64,000 nt of DNA, taken from Terrimicrobium sacchariphilum (lineage in GTDB: Bacteria; Verrucomicrobiota; Verrucomicrobiia; Chthoniobacterales; Terrimicrobiaceae). Both the position numbers and the translations under genes were made by a program. Shown here in pieces: positions 14,330 through 29,552 of this stretch. Within the stretch, counting starts at the first letter, position 1, and each line of letters begins with the position of its first letter. The notes under the pieces were generated by a model that saw only the letters and a program-made list of their open reading frames with translations, was not told where the DNA came from and did no database searches. The stretch lies in assembly GCF_001613545.1 (NCBI RefSeq), contig NZ_BDCO01000002.1:1736001-1800000 (forward strand), written 5' to 3'.

Positions 14330-14770
14330 TCAGGCCGATTGCTCGCGAGTCGATGTCGGAAGCTTGCTCCACACCAGTTCAACGGCTTTGCGGATGCTCG
14401 TAACCCTTTCAGCTTCGCTGTCCTCAATGGTGATGCCGAAAGCCTTCTCCAGTCCCACGACGACTTCGACGCTGGACATGGAATCCAGCATCCAGATCAC
14501 CTGAAAGTTTCCTGAAAAGTCGTCATCCGCACCCAGAGCAGAGAGATCAGCAGGAATATTTTCCCGAAAAATTGCCCGCACCCCCGCCACGACGTCACGT
14601 GGTATGCCCGAATCAGCGAAGGACAGGTCATAGAACGCATTATCATCAAGCGAGGGTCTGTCTCGTGTGAGGTGCGCTAATTTGCGTTTCGTTTTTCGAT
14701 CGATGCTCGACATGAGCAAAAAGCTGAGCAGAAGAACGGCCGCCAATCCCATGATGGATGGTAAAGACAT
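14330..14770 (-). CDS. Membrane-tethered acyl-carrier-like protein
   Basis: 146 residues from the ATG at 14770. There is one N-terminal transmembrane helix (residues 5-20) followed by a basic stretch (DRKTKRK). The C-terminal region matches a carrier-protein fold: MLDSMSSVEVVVGLEKAFG, with Ser97 in DSM at the position of the 4'-phosphopantetheine serine, then TIEDSEAERVTSIRKAVELV. If modified, it would be a carrier held at the inner face of the membrane. The Sfp-type transferase at 33477 could be the modifying enzyme (inference). No synthase gene is adjacent. Confidence 0.68.
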   Translation of the reverse strand: MSLPSIMGLAAVLLLSFLLMSSIDRKTKRKLAHLTRDRPSLDDNAFYDLSFADSGIPRDVVAGVRAIFRENIPADLSALGADDDFSGNFQVIWMLDSMSSVEVVVGLEKAFGITIEDSEAERVTSIRKAVELVWSKLPTSTREQSA

Positions 14771-15017
14771 ATTGGAAGGGGAGTGGGAAAGTTGGCCCGA
14801 AGTCAGAATGCGGAGTATTGGTAACGAGTGAAGGCAATGCGTTTCGCTATGACCCATACAATGGGGCGAACGAGTCGAGCGGTCGCGAAATGTTCTTCTT
14901 CAGAACGTCGACGATCAGCAGTCAAGAGCCTGTTCTCTACTCTGGAATCGGTGTGATTGGCAAAAGAATCGTTCGTGTTTTGCACGCGCCCTGACAGCCG
15001 GGGGCGAGGTGCGTTGG

Positions 15018-15470
15018 CTAATTTGGCGGACCATGAATAATTGGGTTATAGAAGAACGTCCACACTCTCACTTCCTTTATGAATTGGAGGTCGCTATGGG
15101 GCGGCAAAAACTGGAGACGCATCTTCCATGTGCCGGAATGCCAGTGGTTGTGGGATTGCGGGTGAGATGGGTCAATCAGCCATAGAGAGCCAGTTCGCCA
15201 ACAGCTACTCCCGATATCTCGCCCGCTTGAGACAAATCGCAAGGAATATCTCTTTCCGTTTGGGGCGATGGCATATGAGCGTTCAATATCAATCTCTGGC
15301 TTGTCGGATTCCCTCGGGGAGTTGCTGGTCTTCCAGCTAATCGCAAGAGATCCATCGCTCTCGACATATCCGCCCAGGCGACCGTCTTTTGGTGTGATCG
15401 CTGTCTGAGTAAGGGGGATGCATCCTGATAATGTGACGATGAAGAGTGCTGCTATCGCCAGGCGTATCAT
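15018..15470 (-). CDS. Putative lipoprotein of unknown function
   Basis: 150 residues from the ATG at 15470. The signal MIRLAIAALFIVTLSGC has lipobox LSGC. The mature part is beta-rich with Trp and His (PSHPQSHNHWHSGTW). No family is recognised. A longer start at 15563 is open but would bury the signal. The local GC content is lower than that of neighbouring housekeeping genes. Confidence 0.62.
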   Translation of the reverse strand: MIRLAIAALFIVTLSGCIPLTQTAITPKDGRLGGYVESDGSLAISWKTSNSPRESDKPEIDIERSYAIAPNGKRYSLRFVSSGRDIGSSCWRTGSLWLIDPSHPQSHNHWHSGTWKMRLQFLPPHSDLQFIKEVRVWTFFYNPIIHGPPN

Positions 15471-15576
15471 AATATTGACGGCCGTCCCCAATGATCTGTT
15501 CCCTCTGGCTTCTGGCATCCTGAGGCTGTGATGTTGCGGAAATGCGAGAATTGCCGTCGGCATGGGGGTATGCTCG

Positions 15577-15984
15577 CTAGATATTTCCTATCTTCTGTTT
15601 AATCTCACGAATAAAGCGTTCGCGATCACGCGGCGAAATCAGTCGAAAACCATTGCCCAGTTTAATCTTTACGCGTTGGAGTGAAAGGGCTGGGGCGCTC
15701 AATGGGTCGCTGCTTGGAACGGCATCTCTGATATTCTGTAATTGGATTATTTCTCGCAGTATACCGCATTGAATAGTTAGATGCTTTTCGGTCAGCGTAT
15801 ATCGACATGGAATCGCGATGGCTGCAAAACCGAGAGCCATGAGAAGACCCGTGGGAATCAAAATCATAGCGGTCAAGTCACCGAGGTAGATGCCAAGGCC
15901 AATTACAAGCAATGGAACTGTAATCAGCAATATGGCAAGCCACGCATCGACCTTGGATGGATAGATGGATTCAGAATCGGGCAT
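15577..15984 (-). CDS. Small membrane protein with bacterial PH-like domain
   Basis: 135 residues. Two hydrophobic helices (about 12-32 and 36-55) are followed by a short beta-rich module (RYTLTEKHLTIQCGILRE) ending in PRDRERFIREIKQK. This layout matches YdbS/YyaB-like bacterial PH-domain proteins. The PH-like part would face the cytoplasm. Function is unknown. Confidence 0.68.
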   Translation of the reverse strand: MPDSESIYPSKVDAWLAILLITVPLLVIGLGIYLGDLTAMILIPTGLLMALGFAAIAIPCRYTLTEKHLTIQCGILREIIQLQNIRDAVPSSDPLSAPALSLQRVKIKLGNGFRLISPRDRERFIREIKQKIGNI

Positions 15985-16396
15985 GTGTCTTGGCTAATGT
16001 TGAAGGAAAGGGTTGAATTTGACTCTGCCGGAGGGGGCGGGTTGTCTAAGCAATGTGCCTCCAGTGTCCCGTGCGGATGGGGTGTGTTTCTGTGGGCAGG
16101 TTGCATGGATAAGGAAGATTACAACGACGCAGGGGGCATGAGAATTAGAAAGCGCTCATGTGTTTCCGAAAAGACGGTGAACACGAGGGCAAAGTTTTTA
16201 AGGCTTTGAGCCTGCTCTTAGCTGCAATCCAGCCCTCAGATGGTTGTTCTCCTGGAAAGAAAGTCTAGTAATTTGAGGTGTCTTTCCTCGCTGGGTGCTG
16301 AATGGTTGTGGGTTGGCTGGCGTCAAAGCCTCCCGATACCACTTGGCAGGGAATTGATTTTCTGCCTACCATAGCCATAGCCGGTTCCGGGTGAAC
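15985..16396. other. 412-bp interval without a convincing gene
   Basis: Open frames here are short, overlap on both strands and show no recognisable protein features. Composition is more A/T-rich than the flanks. Near its right end is a possible promoter for the tRNA: TTGATT at 16354-16359, an 18-nt spacer and TAGCCG at 16378-16383. Confidence 0.5.
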
Positions 16397-16472
16397 GGGG
16401 GTATAGCTCAACGGTCAGAGCAGGCGGCTCATAACTGCTTGGTTCACGGTTCGAATCCGTGTGCCCCCACCA
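16397..16472 (+). tRNA. tRNA with CAU anticodon (tRNA-Ile2 or elongator tRNA-Met)
   Basis: 76 nt. The acceptor stem GGGGGTA pairs with TGCCCCC (one G-U), followed by A and an encoded CCA. The D-arm is GCTC/GAGC. The anticodon loop is CTCATAA (anticodon CAU at 16430-16432), and the T-arm contains GGTTCGAATCC. The anticodon arm and variable loop (AGGCGGCTCATAACTGCTTGG) resemble bacterial tRNA-Ile2, which is modified to lysidine, more than typical elongator Met, so Ile(k2CAU) is the better guess. Confidence 0.93.
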
Positions 16473-27527: not shown

Positions 27528-27601
27528 GCAGCCGTAGCTCAATTGGATAGAGCATCTGACTACGGATCAGAAGGTTTGGGGTTCGAATCCCTACGGCTGC
27601 A
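27528..27601 (+). tRNA. tRNA-Arg (ACG)
   Basis: 74 nt. Acceptor GCAGCCG/CGGCTGC is perfect, with discriminator A at 27601; CCA is not encoded. The anticodon stem is TCTGA/TCAGA with loop CTACGGA (anticodon ACG, deaminated to ICG in bacteria). The T-arm is GGGGTTCGAATCCCT. A terminator follows directly. Confidence 0.96.
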
Positions 27602-27610
27602 CTTTCCAAA

Positions 27611-27644
27611 CCCGCAGGAATCCTTGTTCTGCGGGCTTTTTTTT
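27611..27644 (+). terminator. Rho-independent terminator of tRNA-Arg
   Basis: A 7-bp perfect stem CCCGCAG/CTGCGGG (27611-27617, 27629-27635) with an 11-nt loop is followed by C and eight T. It marks the end of the tRNA transcript. Confidence 0.85.
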
Positions 27645-28348
27645 GCTCCGACTCGGAGCCTGTGTGCGAAACGCCGCTCGATATGGGCGATGAGCGTTGG
27701 CCTCGGGATGGGCTCGCGCTCGGCGGATCACCTCCTGCAGTCGCTCACTTTTGGTGGTTTCTTGACGCACTAAAAATCCTCCAGAGTGCCCAGCGAGAAA
27801 AACCGGCTCATCCTGATCCCTCGGCCCCAGATGTAGAATGAGGATCTGTTTTTTTACGGCTCCCCTCCGCAGAGGGGCATAACCTCGAATCTCACGCGAG
27901 AGCAACCAACTTGGATCCTGCGAATCGCCAGCCTGCCTAGCCACCAATAATCTCTGGGACGGCCGTGGTGGCCCCATCAAGGGGCGCCAGGCTCGGGATG
28001 GGGGGCGATCGCCTCCCACAGGGCGCGAGTCAGCGCAAATGGGAACAGATACTCCGCGCTGTGGGCTGCAAACCGGCGGAGCTAAAGCGGGAGTGGGCCT
28101 CGGTGATCGCCATCGGCTGCGAACTCGTTCCACGTCTGAGGGTACTGATTATCCACTGCCGCTTCCACGTCTCTCTGCGTTGATGGATAAGCGAGTAATC
28201 GACACGGCCATAACGCGGCTATGTCGGCTCGCTTCATCTGCTTCTGGCGATCCTGCTGAGGATCGCGGTGCAGCCCAGACGCCATGCCTTAAAAAAAACG
28301 AAGACTGCTTTCTGGGAATTCACAGTTACTCCAAGCTAAAATGCAAAG
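27645..28348. other. 704-bp segment without a convincing gene (accessory region, left part)
   Basis: Open frames are short on both strands and I recognise none. A 72-codon plus-strand frame at 27965-28183 contains protein-like text (KWEQILRAVGCKPAELKREW) and could be a decayed gene fragment. There is no copy of the tRNA-Arg 3' end here. Codon structure is lost compared with the flanks. A TAAAAT box at 28337-28342 precedes the next gene by 6 nt. Confidence 0.45.
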
Positions 28349-28861
28349 ATGCTTGAGGCCTATCTTTCTTCAGGTGGTCTGTCTCGGAAAAGCGGTCCGT
28401 GCGTTTATGCCCTTATCCTTATCGCGAAAGATCATGACCCTAGAATATATATTGGCCGCACCGGGACTTCCTCAAAAACAGGCGTAGACTCGCCTTTCGG
28501 AAGATTAAGCACCCACCTGAAGAAACGCGGAAAAACTGCAACATGTATTTTCGGCGGACGGAATGATCCTGCATTCATTGAATCAGCGAGAGTCGTCTTC
28601 CTTGCCGTTCACATTCCTGGTTCACATCCGGAGGTTGGGACCGCGGAGAAGTGGATGATTTGGCACTGCGAGCAGAATAAGAAAGTCGGGAGGTATGAAT
28701 TGCTCAACGGAGAGGATATCCCGAAAAACGAGCCTCCCATTCGCGAATCTATAAGGGCGGAGTTGTTGAAGCTTTATAAAAAGGCTGTTCATTGTTGCGG
28801 TGTTGAACCGAAATGCCTTCCTTCAGGCAGGAGCGCACCTATCAAGACAGGAAACATATGA
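28349..28861 (+). CDS. GIY-YIG-like nuclease-domain protein (putative)
   Basis: 170 residues. The region CVYALILIAKDHDPRIYIGRT matches the spacing of a degenerate GIY-YIG motif (VYA, then about 11 residues, then YIG). It continues with GRLSTHLKKRGK, which holds the conserved Arg region, and a Glu in FIESARVVF. GIY-YIG domains cut DNA in mobile elements, restriction and repair. The first motif is not canonical, so catalysis is uncertain. The gene has lower GC and A/T-rich codons unlike its neighbours, and is the only clear gene between tRNA-Arg and tRNA-Phe, suggesting acquisition. Confidence 0.55.
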   Translation: MLEAYLSSGGLSRKSGPCVYALILIAKDHDPRIYIGRTGTSSKTGVDSPFGRLSTHLKKRGKTATCIFGGRNDPAFIESARVVFLAVHIPGSHPEVGTAEKWMIWHCEQNKKVGRYELLNGEDIPKNEPPIRESIRAELLKLYKKAVHCCGVEPKCLPSGRSAPIKTGNI

Positions 28862-29476
28862 AGGATTGGCGGTACGCACCCGCCCGAAAATCGTCCAGCT
28901 AGTCCCGACCTTTAGGTGGTTTCGTCAAAAGTGTTCTGTTCTCCTGGGACGTGCGTCACAGATCGAAAACGTTCCGATTTCGTGTTCGTTCATCTCACAA
29001 AGCGCTCCGGCTTGGGACGCCAAGCATGGTGCACGAGGGAATAGGCGCCAAGGTTGAGGAAATATTAGCATTCGGTTCTGCAAGATTTTACGCCATTGTG
29101 CAGTTGCGGAGTCTGGTGAGGATTCTTAACACTGAGGAGGGGGCTTCAAAATTTGTTGCTGTCCTTATGGGACAGCGCTTTTCCGGGAGCTGTCTTCCAG
29201 AGACAGGTTAGCTCGCGCAGATTGATTGTTCCTTTCAAAGCGGCGGTCTGGATCGCGCGTGTTGCGGCCTCTGGATCGCGAGCAAACGAAAAGGGCCGTA
29301 TGGTCACCTTCGTGCGGAAGTTGGAACATGGCCTGCGGTCAGGAATCGGGGGAATTCTGCAAGAAAAGCAGCTCCTTCACGTACCATCAGCTCGTGTGGC
29401 ACAAAAGTGGCCTCGGACGGCTGTGATTCCGCTTTTCAGGACAACATGGAGCCTTTTAGCTCCATTATCAGTAAAG
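28862..29476. other. 615-bp segment without a convincing gene (accessory region, right part)
   Basis: Only short open frames are present (up to about 147 codons, one of them running through the tRNA antisense) and none has recognisable features. Composition is mixed and lower in GC than the flanks. It ends at the 3' end of the leftward tRNA-Phe. I see no direct repeat of either tRNA, so no attachment site is claimed. Confidence 0.45.

Positions 29477-29552
<76 letters not shown>

Follow-up and report, generated by a model that had tools for sequence, protein, structure and literature searches.

We have found that the 1,874 bp separating a tRNA-Arg gene from a tRNA-Phe gene in Terrimicrobium sacchariphilum are, on balance, probably a lineage-specific islet, the largely deleted residue of an element that targeted a tRNA gene. 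This is the best explanation we have and it is not proven, because the interval retains neither an integrase nor an attachment repeat, nor any gene relic that can be recognised. The interval lies in a stretch of 64,000 nucleotides that was analysed as a whole (the window), and the genome comprises 4,751,807 bases in 3 contigs; the published draft of T. sacchariphilum NM-5T is likewise reported to hold 4,751,807 bases in 3 contigs (PMC5532833).

The two tRNA genes, both identified with ARAGORN and Rfam, are convergent, with the interval lying between their facing 3′ ends: tRNA-Arg(ACG), which has no encoded CCA, forms the left border (27528-27602, plus strand) and tRNA-Phe(GAA), which has one, forms the right border (29477-29552, minus strand). 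Directly 3′ of tRNA-Arg is a terminator-like hairpin with a T-run (27611-27645, plus strand). A gene for a 170-aa orphan protein resembling a GIY-YIG domain (28349-28861, plus strand) stands between two pieces of lineage-specific DNA in which no gene is supported, one at 27603-28348 (52-64% GC per 150 bp) and the other at 28862-29476 (about 51-58% GC per 150 bp). The GC content of the interval is 53.7%, against 58.5% for the whole window; it is lowest at 28203-29252 (47-52% per 150 bp), and only one of 1260 sampled 1-kb windows has a GC content as low as that of 28250-29249. Codon log-odds were trained using 30 long ORFs of the window, which themselves score 0.325 on average and 0.141 at the lowest. 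On this scale the 170-aa ORF scored -0.129 and the six other scored ORFs of the interval -0.246 to 0.038; not one of the seven, the best at 0.038 against the training minimum, has native-looking codon statistics. The original prediction of a low-GC, poorly coding segment of about 1.9 kb, with a single clear gene of 170 aa and A/T-rich codons, is borne out. It had also singled out a protein-like fragment at 27965-28183, for which we find no support: GC3 in this ORF is 0.74, its codon score is only 0.038, and no family matches it above the cut-off (the best in Pfam is DUF6362, E=0.13, and there is none in NCBIfam). Rfam gives no RNA family above its gathering score in the interval, only two sub-threshold noise matches.

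We note that the window holds a second low-GC stretch, at 14766-16360, directly before tRNA-Met at 16397. The lowest-GC sampled 1-kb window, at about 15200, falls inside it; from about 14766 to 16338 there is no match in either congener, and long similarity begins at about 16361-16397. A GC-skew switch was also considered as a replication landmark and dropped, the negative stretch spanning only about 17-28 kb.

Relatives were compared in a family set of 26 genomes, made up of T. sacchariphilum itself, its two congeners (G387 and G388) and 23 others. The interval DNA has no match in either of the congeners, and among the 25 other family genomes it matches only one, G400, over 38 bp of the terminator (84%), which in that genome stands behind a tRNA-Lys gene; none of it was found in plasmids. 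The left flank, the gene of which we read as lolC, matches G387 with 91% identity as far as the final base of tRNA-Arg (27602) and no further, while its similarity to G388 goes only to 27423, since tRNA-Arg has another location in that genome. On the right, similarity to G387 begins at 29473 and similarity to G388 at 29479, both at the 3′ end of tRNA-Phe. The non-conserved piece is therefore bounded by tRNA 3′ ends, on the Arg side as judged from G387 only. In G394, which belongs to a different genus, lolC is likewise followed by tRNA-Arg, within which the contig ends. A conserved, syntenic interval, which would speak against the original prediction, was looked for in the relatives and not found.

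The same comparison bears on the idea that the interval is old DNA native to the genus, displaced or deleted in both congeners by islands and rearrangements of their own at the same tRNA genes. The congeners do have an apparent island or rearrangements there, and the terminator directly after tRNA-Arg is of the native type, as native DNA would have, which also counts against the residue of an element. Yet, G400's 38-bp terminator apart, no trace of the interval is present in either congener or the 23 other family genomes, and the codon usage of the 170-aa gene is atypical; we consider old native DNA improbable.

In G388 the two flanks are not adjacent, and in G387 they are found on separate contigs. 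A rearrangement breakpoint is therefore a serious competing explanation, and the borders of the interval may also stem from rearrangement. In G388 the tRNA-Phe flank (C11:73472), tRNA-Arg (C11:93538-93612) and lolC (C11:1186937) are all separated, and the tRNA-Phe flank is bordered by a gene cluster, moxR-type by our reading, that is about 380 kb away in T. sacchariphilum; at least one rearrangement must therefore have separated or joined the flanks. If this were the whole story, the side with lolC and tRNA-Arg would have been brought together with that of tRNA-Phe by an inversion or translocation, and what lies between would be a patchwork of ordinary intergenic DNA that was never an element, with which the unequal GC of its left and right parts agrees. 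What such a breakpoint leaves unexplained is the position of the breaks, at the 3′ ends of tRNA genes that in G387 resemble attachment sites, and the change in the 3′ end of tRNA-Arg; we regard it as rather unlikely, while giving it real weight.

We also note that the G388 block running from tRNA-Phe to tRNA-Arg (about 73472-93700; L084/L085, C11:56000-95999) sits between stretches that flank tRNA-Ala in the other two genomes. No tRNA-Ala was found at the place of that block in G388, and a direct repeat of 55-59 bp (86%) occurs in G388 at 80585 and 93685.

In G387 both tRNA genes look like attachment sites for tyrosine-recombinase elements. An exact 49-bp copy of the 3′ end of G387's own tRNA-Arg lies about 39 kb downstream (C25:240150-240198), and a gene for a 386-aa tyrosine recombinase (PF00589, E=1.8e-8) starts 55 bp from this copy; the segment between the tRNA gene and the copy contains a TrwC-type relaxase gene, and a second, degenerate copy of the tRNA-Arg end (84%) follows about 0.96 kb beyond the exact one. 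An exact 52-bp copy of the 3′ end of the T. sacchariphilum tRNA-Phe is likewise present in G387 (C48:40094-40145), overlapped by a second tyrosine-recombinase ORF (PF00589, E=2.1e-7). Here it is the tRNA-Phe of G387 itself that has an altered 3′ end and the distal copy that has the T. sacchariphilum sequence, the gene and the copy being split over two contigs. We infer that each pair of tRNA gene and copy delimits one element. Two further observations concern these surroundings: a repeat of 42-78 bp near the tRNA-Arg attachment copy (L089:9020-9097) recurs elsewhere, at several sites in G387 and G388, and an AbiEi-like gene (E=4.8e-53; L091:10903-11628) lies a few kb from the recombinase ORF in the apparent tRNA-Phe element.

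The 3′ end of tRNA-Arg in T. sacchariphilum has itself changed. The first 49 nt of the gene are identical to those in G387, G388 and G391 (the last from another genus), and three substitutions, at 27577, 27587 and 27593, all fall after base 49, in the last third, at sites where those three sequences are identical to one another. Two of the three swap one T-stem pair from A-T to T-A, and all three are also present in the degenerate second copy of G387. The T-arm form of the T. sacchariphilum gene is a common one, and the encoded CCA is absent from tRNA-Arg in G391 as well. By our own arithmetic, if three changes were placed at random, the chance of finding all of them within the final 24 of 73 bases would be about 0.04, and the clustering is therefore suggestive only; to that extent, these are changes of the kind that an incoming element could leave.

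The interval was also searched for what a mobile element might have left in it. No direct repeat of the tRNA-Arg or tRNA-Phe end occurs there, which upholds the earlier remark that no attachment-site repeat is visible, and elsewhere in the genome only weaker tRNA-like matches to either end exist (at most 78% identity over at least 50 bases). A tblastn search with the two G387 integrases revealed no integrase or integrase relic in the interval, returning only a noise match of 27.5% over 40 aa (E=5.4) and the tRNA-Phe end itself, and none of the 35 stop-to-stop segments in six frames holds a relic of a mobile-element gene, with no E-value better than 0.018 in Pfam or PHROGs. The tRNA-Phe 3′ end also has an imperfect match in inverted orientation, at 27932-27946, which was set aside as expected by chance on our own estimate. 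Separately, the segment 29149-29376 (minus strand) has a 26-aa match to L086, with 50% identity and E=0.002 in a small local set.

The original prediction that an element entered at a tRNA gene and decayed is thus upheld in part. Absence from the congeners, similarity that stops at tRNA 3′ ends, two tRNA genes that resemble attachment sites in a congener and the changed tRNA-Arg end all speak for it, whereas the lack of an integrase, an attachment repeat or a mobile-element gene relic, and flanks that are apart in G388 and on different contigs in G387, speak against it. If the interval is indeed such a residue, an element would have entered at tRNA-Arg, an entry for which the direct example comes from a congener only, and would have left its own version of the tRNA-Arg 3′ end. 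The element would then have been largely deleted, and the deletion, or a rearrangement associated with it, may have brought the remainder up against tRNA-Phe. Anonymous DNA would be left, together with a single cargo gene encoding a small GIY-YIG-domain protein.

We take the 170-aa protein as a stand-alone protein remotely related to the GIY-YIG domain found in candidate defence proteins (PDC-S14). The PADLOC profile PDC-S14 matches it with E=9.8e-5; a profile built from 15 PDC-S14 proteins of the phylum scores 17.6 bits, whereas no score among 1000 shuffles exceeds 3.2; and hhalign against an alignment of 11 sequences (A1) gives a probability of 75% and E=2.4e-5, the highest probability among 60 shuffles being 1.25%. 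The aligned columns of the PDC-S14 profile are 55-164 of 288 only, the C-terminal region not being covered, and the Pfam profile PF01541 reaches 12.3 bits against a cut-off of 22.6 (E=0.22). The motif residues Y20, Y34, G36, R52, H56 and N120 are kept, among which Tyr20 in the first motif, Arg52 and His56, together with the YIG at 34-36, are presumably the residues that correspond by role to those of the GIY-YIG catalytic domain; the invariant Glu of the family (E125 of A1) aligns with I104, and E100 lies four residues before. The notion of a GIY-YIG protein is therefore supported by sequence profiles, while a single-sequence AlphaFold2 model (pLDDT 36.5) is too poor to use. Should the protein be active, it would act by cutting or nicking DNA, possibly DNA of foreign origin.

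Homologues at E<=0.001 were found in 3 of 387 genomes of the phylum, one of them T. sacchariphilum itself. The other two were rejected: in G130 the match shares its reading frame with a 572-aa helicase-like ORF, which by our own reading would be a DEAD-box protein, and in G135 it has five internal stops and overlaps a long ORF read in a different frame. A family search at E<=1 returned 5 of the 26 genomes including T. sacchariphilum, the other four with E of 0.02-0.18, and the PDC-S14 family search at E<=0.001 did not match the T. sacchariphilum genome. Plasmids and phages hold no homologue at E<=0.01, and only noise with E of 4-7 at E<=10; scans of viral contigs and genome contigs gave no confirmed relative, NCBIfam and PHROGs no match, and the best hit among PDB sequences, with E of 0.49, was not meaningful. 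There is no second copy of the gene in the T. sacchariphilum genome.

GIY-YIG domains are found in homing endonucleases, as described in PMC4081073, and the gene might on that ground be a homing-type selfish gene that inserted itself beside a tRNA gene. We consider this very improbable: the non-conserved DNA spans the whole 1.87 kb with borders at the tRNA ends, not at the ends of the gene; we noticed neither an intron nor a host gene that had been split, nor does the genome hold the gene twice. A more speculative thought, to which we give little credence, is that the protein founds a new minimal GIY-YIG family, a trimmed, stand-alone cousin of PDC-S14 disseminated as cargo at tRNA attachment sites and directed against incoming DNA, and that the islet is not decayed at all, being a still intact micro-element that integrases of neighbouring elements mobilise in trans.

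The islet is real and specific to this lineage, it sits at tRNA hot spots and it carries an orphan gene; most likely it is a remnant of integration, and the locus is of an ordinary kind. The phenomenon in general is already well known; what the locus adds is two adjacent tRNA genes as likely points of integration and breakage in a little-studied genus of the Verrucomicrobiota, and an orphan nuclease-like protein with motif residues that can be tested. Literature searches on Terrimicrobium with GIY-YIG, and on Verrucomicrobi integrative and conjugative elements at tRNA genes, found no description of this locus.

Lastly, both the protein and the interval can be set beside known systems. With the GIY-YIG catalytic domain (PF01541) the protein shares Tyr20, YIG 34-36, Arg52 and His56, but its first motif is CVY, the catalytic Glu is not aligned and the score is below the Pfam cut-off. 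With PDC-S14, a candidate anti-phage protein with a GIY-YIG-like region, it shares the GVY/YIG-like motifs, the Arg, the His and the Asn-Gly motif with the segment that follows, over 107 columns, but it has 170 aa against about 300, lacks the C-terminal part and has Ile104 aligned with the invariant Glu. Compared with tRNA-associated genomic islands the interval is very small, has no integrase, is bracketed by two different tRNAs and is without flanking direct repeats, which are reported for all 88 tRNA-integrated elements of a paper on such hot spots in Sinorhizobium meliloti (PMC11476347). Nevertheless, it shares with such islands its borders at tRNA 3′ ends, its absence from relatives, its atypical composition and, in a congener, apparent tyrosine-recombinase elements at the same tRNA genes.
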